Below, in pieces: positions 2,136-28,354 of a DNA stretch of 47,911 nt; within the stretch, counting starts at the first letter, position 1, and each line of letters opens with the position of its first letter. The notes under the pieces are model-generated. The model was not told the DNA's origin, did not search any database, and was given only the letters and a program-made list of their open reading frames with translations. Location of the stretch: positions 1-47,911 of the forward strand of contig JAGCNI010000081.1 of the NCBI GenBank assembly GCA_017646015.1, written 5' to 3'. The DNA is from Lentisphaeria bacterium (GTDB lineage: Bacteria; Verrucomicrobiota; Lentisphaeria; Victivallales; UBA1829). The position numbers were made by a program, and so were the translations under genes.

Positions 2136-3569
2136 TTATTTGATCTGTTTGACCATACCCGGATGAACTCCCGACGGCAGAGTTGTGTTGAGCATTTCTG
2201 CTTTGACTGTCATATACACATGGATCTTTTCCCGGCTGGTAGTCGTGGTACTGAAAAGATATTTCAAAACAGGAATATCGGAAAGCCATGGGATCCCGAT
2301 GACCTGTTCCACATCCTGTTCTTTTTCCCAGCGGGCAAGAATGATCTCCTGATCCAAACAGATCGCAGAATTGCCATTGATCACTCCTGTCTCGATCAAC
2401 TCATGCCCGAAATTGTTCCGCTCCACAACATTCGCTGTCTGGATACTGTATCCAAAAACAACACTGCCCCAACGGTTTGTATAATCTCCCGGGGTATAAT
2501 TTTTAATTGAAAATGCTTCTCTTTCCGGATAGCCGCTCATGGGTTCGCCTCCGGGCAGATTCACCATCGGTGAAGTGATTTTCAGATAAATCTGATAGGA
2601 TCCTTCCGGTAAAGAGGTGATCGTGCCGACAGTAGTCTTGTCATTATCGGCTTTGTAGATATTCTGAAGCTGCGGACTGAACATCAGAGAATAATTCCGG
2701 CTGTCTGAATTGGCTACAGTTATAGAAGCGGTATTGCGGATATCCGCTTTGCCGTTCTGTTGCAGCAGCCGCAGAAAACTGGCATCAAACTGAGGCGCAA
2801 AAAGAAAGCCGCCCATCGGTCCGGAAAAAGATTGCAGAGCCGCACTGCCGGATGAGGAAAGATCCATCGCCTGAAAACTGGTTTGGAAAATATTCATCCC
2901 CGGTCCATTCTTCCATGCAAGATAATCCAACCCGATGTCACGCATAGTGCTCTGCCGGACTTCATACACATTGAAATGAAAACTGATTTGCGGAGCCGGA
3001 CGGTCAAGCCATTCCAGAAATTGAAATACATAACTCGAATTGGAAGCATTGTCTTTCCAATAAATCTGATTGGAATTCTGGTCATACCCATAGACAGAAC
3101 CGTAAGGTCCCTCCCCGACAATGGCGTTGACTATGATGTTGACAAGATCCTGGCCCGATCTGTATTTCGGCTGATAGACCGCACGGGTGATCCCCGTTCC
3201 ACGAATGATCTCTCCCGGAACTTTCCCTTTGACCTGAACATCACGATCCGCTTTGGCAATGAAATCATCCACATACGGCATCATCTTGACAGGACAGGTC
3301 ACGGTCAGGATCTGCTGATTGTTATTGCCGAACACTATACTGCCGACCGTTGAGTTCATGTTGTACCGTTTGACAATCCCAAGCAGAAACGGGATAATGT
3401 CATTGGATTGCACGTACTTCAGAACATACACTTTGGAAACCATCTTGTCCTGTGCATCATCCTGAACGAATCTGAGTTGTTGAATTTCCTGTTTCTCCTG
3501 AGTGTGTGCCGGATAACAGACTGCGGCACAAAACAGGAGAAGCAGCCAGCTGAATTTGGATACAGCCAT
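2136..3569 (-). CDS. Secretin-like protein, first gene of the secretin operon
   Basis: I place the start at the ATG at 3569, giving 477 aa, because it opens with a good signal peptide (MAVSKFSWLLLLFCAAVC...) and follows a run of seven G residues at 3574-3580. The longer frame to 3647 has no ribosome site. An N-terminal module (KVYVLKYVQSNDIIPFLLG) resembles secretin N-domains. A central segment with IGLDYLAWKNGPG matches the next gene, and the C-terminus has GIPWLSDIPVLKYLFSTTTT, the secretin end motif. It diverges from its partner in length and in lacking the low-complexity linker. The two may form a hetero-oligomer or serve different substrates (inference). A TTGAAA/TATAGT promoter lies upstream. 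Confidence 0.77.
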   Translation of the reverse strand: MAVSKFSWLLLLFCAAVCYPAHTQEKQEIQQLRFVQDDAQDKMVSKVYVLKYVQSNDIIPFLLGIVKRYNMNSTVGSIVFGNNNQQILTVTCPVKMMPYVDDFIAKADRDVQVKGKVPGEIIRGTGITRAVYQPKYRSGQDLVNIIVNAIVGEGPYGSVYGYDQNSNQIYWKDNASNSSYVFQFLEWLDRPAPQISFHFNVYEVRQSTMRDIGLDYLAWKNGPGMNIFQTSFQAMDLSSSGSAALQSFSGPMGGFLFAPQFDASFLRLLQQNGKADIRNTASITVANSDSRNYSLMFSPQLQNIYKADNDKTTVGTITSLPEGSYQIYLKITSPMVNLPGGEPMSGYPEREAFSIKNYTPGDYTNRWGSVVFGYSIQTANVVERNNFGHELIETGVINGNSAICLDQEIILARWEKEQDVEQVIGIPWLSDIPVLKYLFSTTTTSREKIHVYMTVKAEMLNTTLPSGVHPGMVKQIK

Positions 3570-3638
3570 AATACCCCCCCAATAAAATGATTTTGTTTTT
3601 CCGCAGAGATCCCCATTCCCTGCAGTTCTAATGGCCTT

Positions 3639-3666
3639 ACTATACACAGAAAAATGATTTTTTCAA
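3639..3666 (-). promoter_or_regulatory. Sigma70-type promoter for secretin operon
   Basis: On the minus strand, TTGAAA (3666-3661) is followed after 16 bp by TATAGT (3644-3639), about 70 bp before the chosen secretin start. The surrounding intergenic DNA is A/T-rich. The divergent gene at 3829 may use TTGAAA (3764-3769) with a weaker TAAGTT (3786-3791). Confidence 0.55.
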
Positions 3667-3828: not shown

Positions 3829-4854
3829 ATGAAAAACGATCAAATCATAAACGGTTTGAATGAATATATCGGAGACAGGTATCAACCCTGTGAATATCCC
3901 GCGTTGCGTCAACAGGCAACGGAATGGTCTGAAAGCAAACCTCTTGCAGGGATCCGGATCCTGGATAATACTCCTTTGTTTACCAACACTTTACTGAAAT
4001 ACATCCCGCTTCTCTCCGGCGGAGCTGAACTGACTCTGGCAATTTCAGAACGGACTCCGTATGACTCTTCTCTGATCCCCGTCATGCGTTCACTGGGAAT
4101 CAGAGTCATTGAAAATTGCAATCAGGGAGATTTCGATTGTATCTTGGATTGCGGCGGTTCTCATGCTCACTTGAAGCCCCGTTACGGATATGCGGAACTG
4201 ACCCGTTCCGGATACTATCACTACAAAGATACAGAACTTCCCGTGATTCTGGTGGATGACAGCCGGATCAAAGCGATCGAGACATGTCTCGGAACAGGTG
4301 ACGGTTTTCTGCGGGCAATGAAACAGCTTGGTCATAAAGATTTTACAAATCGTAAAATCATTGTCTTCGGCTTCGGAAAAGTCGGATGCGGCATTGTTTA
4401 TTATGCAATGAAAGAAGGGGCTGAAGTCAGGATCGTGGATGAACCCGGAACCCTTATCCCGCCCGGAACAGAACTCATCAGCCGTTATGATTCCGATGCG
4501 ATCGCAGCAGCAGTCCGTCAAGCCTGGTGCGTCGTGACCGCCACCGGGATCCGGGATGCCATGCTGCAAAACGGAGCAGCAGAAGAGATCCTTGCCGGCA
4601 AACAACTTGTGGCTGCCATGGGAATCGAAAATGAATGGGGATCATCTCTGCCGGAAGAACGGATCCTGAATCATAATATTCCTTTGAATTTCATTCTGGA
4701 AGAACCGACCCGACTGCGTTATATCGATCCGACCATGGCTCTTTCCAATGTGGCGGCTCTCGCTTTACTCTCCGGAAAAATCCCGCCTGGAGTCAACAGG
4801 ATCGCTCCGGAAACAGAAAAATTTTATATGGATATCGTTGAAATGAAGGATTGA
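3829..4854 (+). CDS. S-adenosylhomocysteine hydrolase-like NAD-binding protein, diverged active site
   Basis: This 341-aa protein is recognisably related to adenosylhomocysteinase but shorter than the usual 420-480 residues. It keeps the dinucleotide-binding core (IIVFGFGKVGCGI, then VTATG) and the flanking segments (ILDCGGSHAHL, PVILVDDSRIK). Aligned by eye with human SAHH, Lys186 is kept, but Asp131 becomes Cys, Glu156 Leu, Asp190 Thr, His301 Ile and His353 Asp. Ordinary SAH hydrolysis therefore looks unlikely. It lies 31 bp before an SAH/MTA-deaminase-like gene. In some archaea SAH is deaminated to S-inosylhomocysteine and then cleaved by an SAHH homolog, so the pair may act on a deaminated nucleoside (inference). 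The start follows a weak AAAGG site. Confidence 0.75.
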   Translation: MKNDQIINGLNEYIGDRYQPCEYPALRQQATEWSESKPLAGIRILDNTPLFTNTLLKYIPLLSGGAELTLAISERTPYDSSLIPVMRSLGIRVIENCNQGDFDCILDCGGSHAHLKPRYGYAELTRSGYYHYKDTELPVILVDDSRIKAIETCLGTGDGFLRAMKQLGHKDFTNRKIIVFGFGKVGCGIVYYAMKEGAEVRIVDEPGTLIPPGTELISRYDSDAIAAAVRQAWCVVTATGIRDAMLQNGAAEEILAGKQLVAAMGIENEWGSSLPEERILNHNIPLNFILEEPTRLRYIDPTMALSNVAALALLSGKIPPGVNRIAPETEKFYMDIVEMKD

Positions 4855-4885
4855 TCACAGAAGATCTGAAAGGCGCAGGGTTGAT

Positions 4886-6133
4886 ATGAGTATATTGTTG
4901 AAACATGTATTGCTGAATGGCAAACAATGTGACATTGCAATCCGTCAGAACAGGATCTCTGAAATCGGAAGTGGGATCCATGGCGATTTTGAAACGGTTA
5001 TCAACGGCTCAGGAAAAGCTGCATTCCCCCCCTTTTACAATATGCACTGTCATGCAGCAATGACTCTCCTCCGCGGGATCGCCGATGATATGGAACTCTT
5101 CGATTGGCTCAATAATCATATCTGGCCCGCTGAAGGACGGCTCACTCCGGAGGATATCTATTGGGGAACACGTCTGGCGTGTCTGGAAATGATCAAATCC
5201 GGAACCGCCTATTTCAATGATATGTATTTTCATCCGCACGAAACAGTTCGGGCGGTACAGGATTCCGGGATCCGGGCAGCGATCGGAATGATTTATCTTG
5301 ATGCATCCCCGCAGGCGGATCTCTTCAAACGGCATAACAGTGAATTATGGGAAAAACGGAACGAACTGGGCGATCGGATCCGTCTGACATACGCCCCTCA
5401 TGCCATTTATACGGTGGAAGAAAAAACACTGGAACAAATCGCGGAACTCTCTGCGGAACAGAATGTTCAAGTCCATATCCACCTTGCAGAAACAGCACGG
5501 GAATATGCAGATTGCATGGATAAACACAACAGGAGCCCTGTCGCATATCTGGATTCTCTGGGATTGCTCTCCAAACGCCTGCTGGCAGCTCATTCCGTAC
5601 ACCTGACAGATGATGATGTGGAACTGATCCGGGAACGCGAAGTCCATACGGTTTTCATGCCATGCAGCAATTATAAACTCTCCTCCGGGAAATTCCGTTT
5701 CAACAAACTGAGTCAGTCCGGATGTCATGTGACTTTCGGAACTGACGGCTGTGCTTCCAATAACAATCTTTCCATGTTCGACGAAATGAAATTCGGAGCA
5801 TTGGCGGCAAAACTGGAATATGGTGGACCAACCGCTTGCAGCAGTGCAGAAATCTTCTACGCAGCAACACAGGCAGGAGCAGAAGCCGCAGGATTTGATG
5901 CGGGAATCATTCAAACAGGAAAACTGGCTGATATCATGCTGATCGATCTGGATTCGCCCATGATGGTCGCAGATCACAATCTGATATCCAATCTCGTTTA
6001 CGCCGCAGATTCCTCCTGTGTCTCCTCCCTGATCTGTAACGGAAAAATATTGATGCACAACAGAATCGTGGAGGGCGAAAAAGAGATTTTGGAACAAGCA
6101 CGGAAATGTGCACGTCATCTGCTCGGGAAATAA
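4886..6133 (+). CDS. Amidohydrolase of the SAH/5-methylthioadenosine deaminase family
   Basis: This 415-aa protein has the features of the MtaD/SsnA/TrzN branch of metal-dependent amidohydrolases. These are the metal-binding HxH (NMHCHAAMTLLRG, His54/His56), a VHIHLAET segment, AAHSVHL, and FGTDGCASNNNLSMFDEMK carrying the catalytic Asp. Characterised relatives deaminate S-adenosylhomocysteine, methylthioadenosine or adenosine to the inosyl form in the cytoplasm. An AGGG ribosome site precedes the ATG, and the gene is almost certainly co-transcribed with the SAHH-like gene upstream. Related enzymes also take guanine or triazines, so the substrate is not certain. The SAHH-like partner favours SAH or another adenosyl compound. 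Confidence 0.82.
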   Translation: MSILLKHVLLNGKQCDIAIRQNRISEIGSGIHGDFETVINGSGKAAFPPFYNMHCHAAMTLLRGIADDMELFDWLNNHIWPAEGRLTPEDIYWGTRLACLEMIKSGTAYFNDMYFHPHETVRAVQDSGIRAAIGMIYLDASPQADLFKRHNSELWEKRNELGDRIRLTYAPHAIYTVEEKTLEQIAELSAEQNVQVHIHLAETAREYADCMDKHNRSPVAYLDSLGLLSKRLLAAHSVHLTDDDVELIREREVHTVFMPCSNYKLSSGKFRFNKLSQSGCHVTFGTDGCASNNNLSMFDEMKFGALAAKLEYGGPTACSSAEIFYAATQAGAEAAGFDAGIIQTGKLADIMLIDLDSPMMVADHNLISNLVYAADSSCVSSLICNGKILMHNRIVEGEKEILEQARKCARHLLGK

Positions 6134-6174: not shown

Positions 6175-6217
6175 ATTTCACCATAGTGTAACGTTTATTT
6201 CTGGAGATGTGATTCTT

Positions 6218-7234
6218 ATGATTACAATAGCAGAGATTGCCCGAATCGCCGGGGTTTCAAGATATACAGCCAGTAAAGTCCTGAATCATGATATGACTGT
6301 CAAAGAAGCGACCCGTACTAAAATTCTGAAAATCTGCGAAGAACACGGATATATCCCAAACCTGAACGCAATCAATCTTGTCCGCGGACGCTCTCCTCTG
6401 ATCGGAATGATCGTTCCATATATCACAGACGGGTTTTACAGCATGATGATTCAGAATATGGAAGTCGAAGCTGAAAAACTCGGTTTTCATCTGCTTTACA
6501 AGTCATACTACAATGATCCAAAACTCGAAGCGAAAACGATCCGTACGATGCTTTCTCTCAATGTATGCGGACTCTTTGTCGTTCCCGCTGTGATTGGAAT
6601 CGATAAAAAAACTCACCAGCTCGCGGCTAAAAATATTCCCGTGATCTATCTCGACCGCCCACTCTCCGGAAATCATTGCTGTATCCTCAATGATAATACT
6701 GCCAGCGCAAGAACTATGACCGAACATCTCCTGAAACAAACACCGTCCGGTGATGTGGTCTTTCTTGACAGTTCATACGGTGAAAGCAATCCGACCGCTG
6801 TCGCACGCAGAAAAGGATATGAGATCGCGATGAAAAAACACGGGTTCACCCCAAAGATCATTCCCGCATCCGGCAATTCCAATCTGCAGGACAGCGAACA
6901 GTATGCGTATGAACGCCTGACTGAATTTTTTCAGGCAGGAAACCGTTGCAAATCACTCTTCTGTGTAACAGATGCCTCCGCATTCGGTGCTGAAAAAGCT
7001 GCCCGTGAAGCCGGACTCAATCCGGGAAAAGATTTCTTCATCGGCGGACATGATAATCTGCCGTTCAGTGCATACTCCAATCCGCCGATCACAACCATGA
7101 CCCAGCCCATTCCGCAGATTTGCAGCAAAGCATTGGAAATTCTGCTGAGCATGCTCGACGGTGCTCCCGATCCCCAGCAGCATTTTATGTTCTCTTCGGA
7201 ATTGACGATCCGGAAATCTGCGGGGGAAATGTGA
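6218..7234 (+). CDS. LacI family transcriptional regulator
   Basis: The chosen ATG at 6218 gives 338 aa and sits 11 bp after GGAG (6203-6206). The GTG at 6209 is too close to that site. The N-terminal helix-turn-helix reads ITIAEIARIAGVSRYTASKVLN, with Ala-Ser-Lys where most LacI proteins have TVSR. A periplasmic-binding-protein-like sensor domain follows (GMIVPYITDGFYSMMIQNME, then the NDNTASARTMTEHL and FFIGGHDNLPFSAYSNPPITTM segments). LacI proteins usually repress sugar or nucleoside genes. Its stop overlaps the start of the MBL-fold gene by four bases. Its targets may be the neighbouring nucleoside-type genes or the convergent GH1 gene, whose promoter sits in an inverted repeat. Confidence 0.9.
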   Translation: MITIAEIARIAGVSRYTASKVLNHDMTVKEATRTKILKICEEHGYIPNLNAINLVRGRSPLIGMIVPYITDGFYSMMIQNMEVEAEKLGFHLLYKSYYNDPKLEAKTIRTMLSLNVCGLFVVPAVIGIDKKTHQLAAKNIPVIYLDRPLSGNHCCILNDNTASARTMTEHLLKQTPSGDVVFLDSSYGESNPTAVARRKGYEIAMKKHGFTPKIIPASGNSNLQDSEQYAYERLTEFFQAGNRCKSLFCVTDASAFGAEKAAREAGLNPGKDFFIGGHDNLPFSAYSNPPITTMTQPIPQICSKALEILLSMLDGAPDPQQHFMFSSELTIRKSAGEM

Positions 7235-8025
7235 AACTCACATTACTCGTTGACAAACAGGATTCTACAAAATTCCAAAGCGAATTCGGTCTCGCTTTCC
7301 TGGTTCAGCATGATCCTGTTCAATTCCTGTTCGACACAGGAGCCGGTTCCGCATTGCTCCATAACATGCAAATGGCGGGTGTCACACAGGAACAATCTCA
7401 AAAAATAGTTTTATCACATGGTCATTACGATCATGCAGGTGGCATTGCTCTCCTGCAGCCCACGGAGATCTGGTGCTGCAATGATGTGGAGATCCCCCAT
7501 TTCAGCCGTCATGCCGATGGCGAAGTAGTTTGTATCTCGATCCCCCAAAATGCACTGAAGGTTCTCCGGAATTCCAATATACACAGAATCAACAAGTTTA
7601 CAGAAATTTTCAATGGAGTCTATGCAACCGGTCCCATCCCCCGTGTTTCAGGAGAAAACAACGGCGGAGATTTTTATCATGACCAGGCATGTTCACAACC
7701 GGATATCGTCCCGGAAGAACAGGCTCTGCTCTTTGCGGAAGGGATCCTCCTGACCGGATGCTGCCACATGGGGATCATCAATACGATTCTATGGTGCAAC
7801 AGTGAAAAACCGGAAATCCCGATCCATACCATCATCGGCGGTCTGCATTTGCGTCACGCCGGAGAAAAACGTTTGCGGGAAACGGCTGATATGATCCGGA
7901 AAACGGAAATCAAAAATTTGTATCTGCTGCATTGTACCGGAGAAAATGCGATCCGCTATCTTCGTAATGCCCTGCCGGAATGTAAGATCCATACCCCCGT
8001 ACCCGGTGAGATCCTCTCTTTCTGA
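7231..8025 (+). CDS. MBL-fold metallo-hydrolase (COG1237-like)
   Basis: I choose the GTG at 7231, which overlaps the LacI stop as GTGA and has a GGGGGAA ribosome site at 7222-7228. This gives 264 aa. The longer frame to 7120 only runs inside the LacI gene. The protein has the metallo-beta-lactamase metal motif SHGHYDHAGG, a GCCHMGIINT segment and GGLHLRHA. Together these define the subgroup annotated as 7,8-dihydropterin-6-methyl-4-(beta-D-ribofuranosyl)-aminobenzene-5'-phosphate-synthase-like hydrolases. Members bind two metal ions and have varied, mostly unproven substrates. Tight coupling to the regulator suggests that both serve the same pathway. The substrate cannot be read from sequence. 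Confidence 0.85.
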   Translation: MKLTLLVDKQDSTKFQSEFGLAFLVQHDPVQFLFDTGAGSALLHNMQMAGVTQEQSQKIVLSHGHYDHAGGIALLQPTEIWCCNDVEIPHFSRHADGEVVCISIPQNALKVLRNSNIHRINKFTEIFNGVYATGPIPRVSGENNGGDFYHDQACSQPDIVPEEQALLFAEGILLTGCCHMGIINTILWCNSEKPEIPIHTIIGGLHLRHAGEKRLRETADMIRKTEIKNLYLLHCTGENAIRYLRNALPECKIHTPVPGEILSF

Positions 8026-25933: not shown

Positions 25934-28354
25934 TCACTTGAGGGGTTGTTCATCCCGCATCAGGATCCGGGGATCTTCCTGAACCAGCTTCATCCCGATC
26001 GTATAAAGCTGTCTGATATCAATCAGCTGCAATGTGCCCATACCCAATGCAACATTTTTAATTTCAAGACCTTCAGTGACTGCACGACGGAAGAATTTAC
26101 AATTTTCAGCATCATGACGATAGAAATCACGATCGCCGGGGAGATGATTTTCAATCAGAACAGTTTTCAACTTTCCATCGGACTCCCGCACCCGGCAAAT
26201 TGCCGTACCGAGCCCGGGAAGATTTGCCTGATCTTCCAGATAATGCAGGAAAGTAGTCGGACCGAGACCTGTTCCGAAGAAAAGGATTTTTCCATTCCGT
26301 TCCAATGCTTTATGCAGCGGAGAAGTGATTCCGCAGGGAGGATCGCAGGGTGCATGATCCGCAAGACATTCCGCCGCATGTTTCCCCAGACCGACCCAGG
26401 AATGTGTGACATGTCTGCTCCGGATCGCCTCCGGGTATTTCCGCAAGACTGTTTTCGGGATATCTCCAGTCCAGACAGCATCAATATCGGCAGGATCAAA
26501 CGGGCGGAACCACCAATTTTTATTGACTCCGCTGCCCAGATGGATAAAAGGATAATTGAACGATGCAAAAAGAGCAGTATCCGCAAGTCCTGCAATCGCA
26601 TCGATCACCGTTTCTGCGCCATTGGCAATATAACCACAGGAGGCAACAGAGGAATGAACCAGCAGAGTATCTTTTGCGGTAATGCCGAGCTGTTTCAGGG
26701 AAGTTGTAATATCATCCTTTGTAATTTCCTGCCGCTGAATAATTTCCAGATATCCCCAGTCTGCCAGATAATTGACAGCTCCTGCCAATTTTCTGATTTC
26801 GGATTCAGAGATGACAGTATTGCGTTCTGCCTCGGCTTCAAGGATCAGACGGGCAAGAGATTTTTTTCCGTCCATATTGCAGAGGATATTGGAAAACGGT
26901 CCGTACAGGATCGTCGGCAGCACTCTTCTCTGTTCCAGAGGGATACGGGCGAGGCTGTGAGGGAATCCCGTTGTTTTTCTTGCGAAAATCATCTGATCGG
27001 CATATTCACGCCAGGGGGATGAGATCTCTTTGATCTCAAACTGTTCCCGTTCCGGAGCGGGTCCGGTGTAGTTGAGGATCCGTTCCATCAAGGTGGAGAC
27101 GAAAGCGGTATTTTTATGGAATTTTTCCCATGCGATCGACTTTGGATCACACTGAATGGAATTGTGCCAGTATCCGCTGCCGTTACAGAAAGCCCAGAGA
27201 GTCGGCACGCCCACGGTGGGATCACTGATCCAGTTATCATCATAATATTCTTCTGTTGAGAAAGTCAACGGCAGGAAAGAGTTGAGTTCGTCATAACATT
27301 CTTTCATCAACTTGTTGCCGATAAAAGGAACAGCAGGACCTGCGCCATGCAGTTCAAGAGAACAATGATCGAATCCGGCGAGCGTGTCGATATTGCAGCC
27401 GCCGATGACTTCATTTTTCAAATTTTCGCCACGGGATGCGACATAAGCGGCATAGCCGTACACTTCCATGGCAAAGACCAGACGGAGAGTGTATTCGGGA
27501 GTACCTTTGAGCATGATCTGACGGGCGATTTCAATTCCGGCGATCACTCCGCTGGAATCATCATCCAGAAGAGGTTCAAAGGTATGAGCAATCAGCCAGA
27601 CTTCTTTTTTCTGTCTGCCGGGAACAATTCCGGTCACAAGCGGCAATTTTCCTTCGTAACGTTTCCCGTCACACTGGACCAGCACTTTACAATTTCCGCG
27701 GTTTGCTTTCTGACGGATCAGATCACCAGTCCGGGGAGAAACAGAAAAACCGATGAAAGGACGATCTTCAGCTGTCACATGCCAATCCAGAGTTTCTGCT
27801 CCTGCATTGACCCACTGAACAGAATCCGGCGTGTTATAACGTCCAGTCAGAAAATCAGTAACGAATCCCAAAGCGCCCATATCCAGGATCGGACGGATCA
27901 CAGGTCTCCGGGGAGAAGTCAGCGATTCCAGCATGACCAATGCCCCGGCAGGATCTTCACCGGCAAGCACCTGTTGTTCTGTGATGATCCTGGAAATGAC
28001 CCCTTCCGGCGGAGTGGCAACAGAACCTTTCACCAGATGAAACGGATGTTCCTGAAAATCAGCGAGGACCGCATTTTCACCGGGAGCAGGCTTGAGCAGA
28101 GAAAGTTTACCGACAGAGGCATCCCATGCGATCGGCATGATCATATCACAATAAGCAGTTTTTCCATCGGCGGGGAAATCCATGATCTCCACATCGGAAA
28201 GCCCACTCTCTTTCATTGTCCGGCTGATATACTCGATCGCTTTGCGATAATGACGGAAAGTCTGTCCCATTTCAATCGCAGTAAGCTCTTCCGTTTTCCG
28301 ACGCAAAACAGCCGGATCAATGGCACTCAGATACTGCTCAAACATTTTTTTCAT
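25934..28354 (-). CDS. Fusion: M28-type aminopeptidase-like domain plus AAC(3)-family acetyltransferase-like domain
   Basis: The 806-aa protein has two clear halves. Residues 1-430 resemble M28/DUF4910-type zinc aminopeptidases, with candidate metal ligands His257 (LIAHTFE), Asp265 (LDDDSSG), Glu297 (FAMEVYG), Asp323 (CNIDTLAG) and His397 (YWHNSI). Residues 430-545 look like a winged-helix segment (LARLILEAEAERNTVISESE then LADWGYLEI). Residues 545-800 match the AAC(3) family, with VHSS (566-569), HVTHS (648-652) keeping the catalytic His, and TTFLH (700-704). The acetyltransferase half therefore looks active, unlike its paralog in the neighbouring fusion. There is no signal peptide. A linked peptide-hydrolysis and N-acylation activity is inference. 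Confidence 0.8.
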   Translation of the reverse strand: MKKMFEQYLSAIDPAVLRRKTEELTAIEMGQTFRHYRKAIEYISRTMKESGLSDVEIMDFPADGKTAYCDMIMPIAWDASVGKLSLLKPAPGENAVLADFQEHPFHLVKGSVATPPEGVISRIITEQQVLAGEDPAGALVMLESLTSPRRPVIRPILDMGALGFVTDFLTGRYNTPDSVQWVNAGAETLDWHVTAEDRPFIGFSVSPRTGDLIRQKANRGNCKVLVQCDGKRYEGKLPLVTGIVPGRQKKEVWLIAHTFEPLLDDDSSGVIAGIEIARQIMLKGTPEYTLRLVFAMEVYGYAAYVASRGENLKNEVIGGCNIDTLAGFDHCSLELHGAGPAVPFIGNKLMKECYDELNSFLPLTFSTEEYYDDNWISDPTVGVPTLWAFCNGSGYWHNSIQCDPKSIAWEKFHKNTAFVSTLMERILNYTGPAPEREQFEIKEISSPWREYADQMIFARKTTGFPHSLARIPLEQRRVLPTILYGPFSNILCNMDGKKSLARLILEAEAERNTVISESEIRKLAGAVNYLADWGYLEIIQRQEITKDDITTSLKQLGITAKDTLLVHSSVASCGYIANGAETVIDAIAGLADTALFASFNYPFIHLGSGVNKNWWFRPFDPADIDAVWTGDIPKTVLRKYPEAIRSRHVTHSWVGLGKHAAECLADHAPCDPPCGITSPLHKALERNGKILFFGTGLGPTTFLHYLEDQANLPGLGTAICRVRESDGKLKTVLIENHLPGDRDFYRHDAENCKFFRRAVTEGLEIKNVALGMGTLQLIDIRQLYTIGMKLVQEDPRILMRDEQPLK

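Follow-up and report, generated by a model that had tools for sequence, protein, structure and literature searches.

The fold considered here is that of SAHH (AhcY; TIGR00936, PF05221/PF00670). In the mouse enzyme, Thr157 and Lys186 contact the 3'-OH, Glu156 and Asp190 contact the 2'-OH, and the nucleobase ligands are Thr57 and Glu59; at the 5' end, His55 acts as a base on water, Asp131 passes a proton to C4', and His301 also takes part (PMC4647836). The SAHH of P. aeruginosa cleaves the N-glycosidic bond of 2'-deoxyadenosine via a 3'-keto intermediate, with loss of adenine (PMC6063907). Euryarchaeal S-inosylhomocysteine hydrolase (SIHH) has the SAHH fold and a short C-terminus, co-occurs with a DadD-type deaminase, and keeps the SAHH catalytic set along with an HxExK base motif (Koeppl et al. 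2024, PMC10978960).

MTA and 5'-deoxyadenosine inhibit SAM-dependent enzymes and need to be removed, which in most bacteria is done by MTAN or MTAP (PMC10986504). P. aeruginosa, with an MTA deaminase and an MTI phosphorylase, and M. jannaschii, with DadD and MtiP, deaminate first and then apply a PNP-type phosphorylase to the inosine form (PMC6302742). The gene pair described here, A and B, would follow the same deaminate-first logic; B falls in the same amidohydrolase group as the P. aeruginosa and M. jannaschii deaminases (PMC6302742), whereas the second enzyme, a PNP-superfamily phosphorylase in those organisms, is here apparently an NAD-dependent SAHH-fold protein. Pfs/MTAN and MtnP share the role proposed for A and B, removal of MTA and 5'-deoxyadenosine, but have a fold unrelated to that of A (PF01048) and work without NAD and without prior deamination.

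An SAHH-fold gene head to tail with a deaminase gene

The window, that is, the whole 47,911-nucleotide stretch of DNA analyzed, is a contig from a 2.5-Mb genome assembly that is about 79% complete and whose relatives are Victivallales. Gene A (3829-4854, + strand) encodes a 341-amino-acid NAD-binding protein that has the SAHH fold and belongs to a new family, and gene B (4886-6133, + strand) encodes a 415-amino-acid amidohydrolase of the MTA/SAH/5'-deoxyadenosine deaminase group; the two lie head to tail with a spacing of 31 bp. A preliminary description of this DNA had given the same coordinates, lengths, and gap, and had called A a divergent SAHH-like protein, as is borne out by sequence and structure searches alike. 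NCBIfam adenosylhomocysteinase models match A at E 1e-9, nearly every phmmer match in the PDB is an SAHH, and hhalign of the gene A family (an alignment of 76 diverse members) against Victivallales SAHHs gave a probability of 97.7%. An AlphaFold2 model of A built from 76 homologues (mean pLDDT 97.3, pTM 0.92) places the protein in the SAHH fold; the top 50 Foldseek matches to this model in the PDB are all SAHHs, with TMq values up to 0.81.

A thus has in common with SAHH a two-domain fold that includes a Rossmann domain for NAD (TM about 0.8 in Foldseek), the GxGxxG motif, and equivalents of Lys186 and Thr157. It differs in that identity is about 20%, the protein is about 90 residues shorter, the 5' catalytic and base-recognition residues are replaced, and A coexists with a normal SAHH, which in the source genome is encoded on a separate contig. 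Scores fall far below the curated SAHH cut-offs, at 37 bits against 275 for NF004005 and 36 against 498 for TIGR00936; other members of the family score 27-58 bits on SAHH models (cut-offs of at least 275), and the Pfam SAHH domain PF05221 gives no match to A. Gene A is a member of a new conserved family, carried by many gut bacteria, that lies outside every curated family searched, and literature searches among open-licence papers found no paper on it. Across 76 sequences from several phyla, 30 columns are invariant.

B was described earlier as an intact amidohydrolase of the SAH/MTA-deaminase type, and this description holds: its metal and catalytic motifs are complete (NMHCH, HLAETxxE, AHSVHL, and GTDG, supplying HxH, HxxE, H, and D), and it is collinear at every motif with the C. 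violaceum MTA/SAH deaminase structure 4f0r. The match to Pfam Amidohydro_1 has an E value of 4.6e-62. The best NCBIfam models all belong to the MTA/SAH/5'-deoxyadenosine deaminase group, although B stays below the curated equivalog cut-offs (413 bits against 609 for the best model). In one relative, the B homologue (genome G005, C1:569-1795, L031) is well conserved apart from three in-frame TAG codons, which reflect either TAG recoding or gene decay.

Directly downstream of B, a gene for a LacI-type regulator (6209-7234, + strand) overlaps, in another frame, an ORF with a metallo-beta-lactamase fold (7120-8025, + strand). Divergent from A are two adjoining genes, 369-2123 and 2136-3647 (both - strand), each with one secretin domain. 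Elsewhere in the window, positions 25934-28354 (- strand) encode an 806-amino-acid protein in which DUF4910 is joined to an aminoglycoside 3-N-acetyltransferase-type domain (Antibiotic_NAT, 4.7e-31), an unusual fusion.

The active site of gene A

Residues of A were paired with those of SAHH by profile alignment (hhalign and phmmer), and conservation was counted in 76 homologues. At the nucleobase motif site, residues 49-53 PLFTN (3973..3987, + strand) replace the SAHH motif HxTxE(Q), of which the SIH form is HxExK; P49 stands at His55, F51 at Thr57, and N53 at Glu59/Gln, P49 and N53 being present in 76/76 homologues and F51 being F or Y in all 76. Residues D107-C108 (4147..4152, + strand) put C108 opposite Asp131, a position that is C in 75/76 and S in 1/76. 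Residues 123-128 ELTRSG (4195..4212, + strand) lie opposite SAHH EETTTG, so that Glu156 becomes L124 and Thr157 is retained as T125, both in 76/76. The segment 143-152 DDSRIKAIET (4255..4284, + strand) contains K148, the counterpart of Lys186, together with D143 at Asn181, E151 at Asp190, and T152 at Asn191, each invariant in the 76. The Rossmann NAD-binding motif GxGxVGxG follows as residues 181-188 GFGKVGCG (4369..4392, + strand), and D204, after the second strand, is found in 59/76. Finally, residues 266-269 IENE (4624..4635, + strand; V-E-D-E in most members) replace the His301-Phe gate, with I266 at His301 and V, A, or I there in 76/76.

These pairings agree with the earlier replacements of Asp131 by Cys, Glu156 by Leu, and His301 by Ile, and with the retention of Lys186, but not with that of Asp190 by Thr, which came from an ungapped reading. 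Both phmmer and hhalign open a one-residue gap past the lysine and pair Asp190 with E151 (Glu in 76/76) and Asn191 with T152; most likely, SAHH Asp190 is replaced by Glu and not by Thr. The proposed replacement of His353 by Asp (D300) is plausible by motif resemblance, but the position is outside the part aligned by hhalign.

The SAHH catalytic set (His55, Asp131, Glu156, Lys186, Asp190, and His301) is thus not found complete in the gene A family: only Lys186 is identical and Asp190 is conservatively Glu, while the others are replaced in 76/76, and most of the replacement residues are themselves invariant across the 76 homologues. To call A an SAHH-like protein without its catalytic residues, as was done at first, nonetheless goes too far. 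As judged from the alignment, the SAHH site keeps its sugar-oxidizing half (Lys186, Thr157, and the NAD site) whole, and an acid is retained at the position of Asp190, the 2'-OH ligand; it is the C4'/C5' elimination/hydration half that has been rebuilt, with residues unfit for the same chemistry in the same way, along with the base-recognition residues. The P, C, and V/I/A found at the His55, Asp131, and His301 positions would suit an apolar 5' group.

The deaminase of DadD/SAH-deaminase type that adjoins A, and the archaeal precedent (PMC10978960), would fit an S-inosylhomocysteine hydrolase that completes the Methanocaldococcus route from SAH via SIH to inosine and homocysteine, the starting point of the preliminary description. 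We consider this identity very unlikely, since the base motif is PxFxN in 76/76, neither HxTxE nor the SIH-type HxExK (PMC10978960), the 5' catalytic residues His55, Asp131, and His301 that SIHH keeps are gone from A, and a normal SAHH is present in its own genome and in most relatives that carry A. Because the host keeps a normal SAHH, SAH is not an obvious substrate of the pair. That the pair acts on a different deaminated nucleoside, as the preliminary description suggested, we regard as likely.

A might also cleave nothing at all, serving as a nucleoside 3'-dehydrogenase or as a regulatory SAHH homologue like mammalian AHCYL1/IRBIT, with B deaminating the nucleoside before export. Most SAHH catalytic residues are indeed gone, and the short C-terminus lacks the tail with which long-form SAHHs complete the NAD site of the neighboring subunit, but active archaeal SAHHs with short C-termini also exist (PMC10978960). 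The invariant columns, among them the counterparts of Lys186 and Thr157 as well as the NAD motif, together resemble a catalytic site; a non-cleaving A is therefore quite unlikely in our estimation.

Distribution of the pair and of MTA phosphorylase/nucleosidase

When 84,980 species genomes were scanned, 222 gene A loci were confirmed, and the best 80 of these were retained. Hosts among these best 80 of 222 are Lentisphaerota, Akkermansia, Rikenellaceae and other Bacteroidales, Sutterellaceae, and a Fibrobacter, as well as single MAGs labelled Actinomycetota or Clostridium. Cultured isolates carrying A include Akkermansia glycaniphila, Victivallis vadensis, Rikenella microfusus, and Oligosphaera ethanolica. 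The family tree follows phylum for the most part, with Sutterellaceae and Fibrobacter falling within the Bacteroidota rows. A mobile-element origin was considered and set aside, as no relative of gene A was found in plasmids or phages.

The pairing with B had been noted in this genome only; it is in fact found in many genomes and conserved across several phyla. Of 93 non-redundant loci, 47 have A followed by B on one strand, the two genes often overlapping by 4 bp (ATGA type); at six further loci among the 93, all from Bacteroidota, the two are adjacent on opposite strands, and at three they are 2-3 kb apart. Genomes without B beside A usually encode it elsewhere, as do 13/13 Akkermansia and 8/12 sampled Rikenellaceae genomes, B being absent from the other 4/12 sampled Rikenellaceae with A. 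Among Victivallales, B is present in 23/23 genomes with A versus 1/38 without; it is present in 13/13 Akkermansia genomes with A and in 0/9 sampled Akkermansiaceae that lack A and carry PF01048. Which other genes adjoin A varies from clade to clade (cysS, Mur ligases, and others); besides B, none was seen to recur across phyla in this comparison. Mur-ligase genes (L064, L069, L075, and L032) precede A and B at short spacings in one Lentisphaeria clade, as does cysS (L033-L042), again at short spacings, in another. Normal SAHH is present in 56/61 Victivallales genomes irrespective of A.

The Pfam family PF01048 comprises MTAN, MTAP, and PNP. It is found in 3/23 Victivallales genomes with A versus 33/38 without (Fisher p 1e-8, uncorrected for relatedness), many of the genomes surveyed being incomplete MAGs. 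The classified PF01048 genes of Victivallales without A are nearly all MTAP or MTAN, with a few PNP, whereas the three matches in genomes with A comprise one gene resembling AMP nucleosidase, one that is weakly MTAN-like, and a contig-end fragment, none of which passes the MTAP or MTAN cut-offs. In the 79 Akkermansiaceae genomes, PF01048 occurs in 0/8 with A versus 70/71 without; the sole genome with neither, G098, does have the deaminase, as though its assembly had simply missed A. Among the Victivallales, the state flips within two genera, between G000/G001 and G002 in genus g1 and between G007 and G014 in genus g6. An SAHH-gene tree of Victivallales, in which the rows for G045 and G016 are apparently in the wrong frame, gave two supported independent pairs, which leaves no power for a phylogenetically controlled test, and the tree is left out of the evidence here. 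The near-complementary distribution of A/B with MTA phosphorylase/nucleosidase is strong in two clades, Victivallales and Akkermansiaceae. Five Bacteroidales outside Rikenellaceae carry both A and a clear MTAN and are exceptions to it, and Rikenellaceae offer no contrast, with no MTAN over the cut-off in genomes with or without A.

Across the Rikenellaceae, 0/101 genomes have an MTAN over the cut-off, and 83 of the 101 are also without A. In relatives lacking A, MTA/SAH nucleosidase domains occur in unusually long proteins, at 1441-2637 in L172 (G014) and at 49-1236 in L225 (G009); in L172, the MTAN domain is fused to an adenine phosphoribosyltransferase, which gives a route from MTA to AMP within a single protein. 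The futalosine (menaquinone) pathway was also searched for and discarded, as MqnA/MqnD (PF02621) were found in 0/61 genomes with positive controls.

Because A and B usually occur where the enzymes that destroy MTA and 5'-deoxyadenosine are missing, they probably constitute a new disposal route; the complementarity fits glycosidic cleavage or another fate of the nucleoside alike. One such fate is SAHH-type 5' elimination on another deaminated nucleoside, methylthioinosine, to give inosine and methanethiol. It would draw on the SAHH fold and the 3'-oxidation residues that A retains, and clearance of MTA in this way still fits the complementarity with MTAP/MTAN. Against it, His55, Asp131, and His301 are replaced in every homologue by residues that are non-ionizable or weakly suited, 5'-deoxyadenosine has no 5' leaving group and could not be processed, and no PF01048 purine phosphorylase is there to take up the inosine in most Victivallales with A or in all Akkermansia with A examined; we therefore hold 5' elimination to be unlikely. 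General purine nucleoside salvage, from adenosine (for example, that released by the host's own SAHH) to inosine and hypoxanthine, is in our judgment improbable as well. SAHH yields adenosine in nearly all of these genomes and PNP is present in few genomes with A outside Bacteroidota, but PNP is mostly absent from relatives without A as well, which have MTAP instead, so that the complementarity points to 5'-modified nucleosides; moreover, the 5'-OH ligands of SAHH are absent from A, and B is closer to deaminases of 5'-modified adenosines than to classical adenosine deaminase.

A proposed route and its meaning

We think it probable that A and B serve to dispose of SAM-derived nucleosides; that they do so in two steps, acting on 5'-modified adenosines, chiefly 5'-deoxyadenosine and/or MTA, and ending in glycosidic cleavage, is an evenly balanced proposition. 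The fold, the residue pattern, the pairing, and the near-complementary distribution are shown by the data above; the substrate, reaction, and steps we infer as follows. B would deaminate the adenine of 5'-deoxyadenosine or MTA to hypoxanthine, and A, with bound NAD+, would act on the resulting 5'-deoxy- or 5'-methylthio-inosine. Since 5'-deoxyinosine has no 5' leaving group, an enzyme that takes it as substrate has to cleave the glycosidic bond or else do something quite different. A would oxidize the 3'-OH by means of K148, T125, and NAD+, rendering the C2'-H acidic; E151, near the 2'-OH, may help to eliminate hypoxanthine from C1', after which water would add and NADH would reduce the ketone back. 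GH4 and GH109 are NAD-dependent glycosidases that pass through a transient 3-keto form, with elimination at C1, addition of water, and reduction; this chemistry resembles that proposed for A, but they act on hexopyranosides and are unrelated proteins. Residues for 3'-oxidation, an acid that would lie near C2', a 5' pocket of apolar character, and an altered base site are what one would expect of a redox nucleosidase that evolved from SAHH. On the simplest reading, A and B keep the P. aeruginosa and M. jannaschii order of deamination followed by cleavage, with a different second enzyme.

More tentatively, A may be the founding member of a class of NAD+-dependent, SAHH-fold nucleosidases that oxidize C3' and expel hypoxanthine across C1'-C2', in a pathway unknown until now. 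It is conceivable, though short of an even chance, that gut Lentisphaerota, Akkermansia, some Bacteroidales, and Sutterellaceae use this pathway to clear MTA and the radical-SAM by-product 5'-deoxyadenosine.

Akkermansia and Lentisphaerota without a detected MTAP, MTAN, or other PF01048 enzyme represent a gap in gut metabolism, and a conserved two-gene route made up of A and B would fill this gap in the disposal of MTA and 5'-deoxyadenosine. The cultured isolates that carry A make it directly testable. Should A indeed break the glycosidic bond, a side reaction that inactivates ordinary SAHH, the loss of the base from the 3'-keto form, would here have become a physiological task, which would make A an uncommon and clear-cut example of how enzymes evolve.
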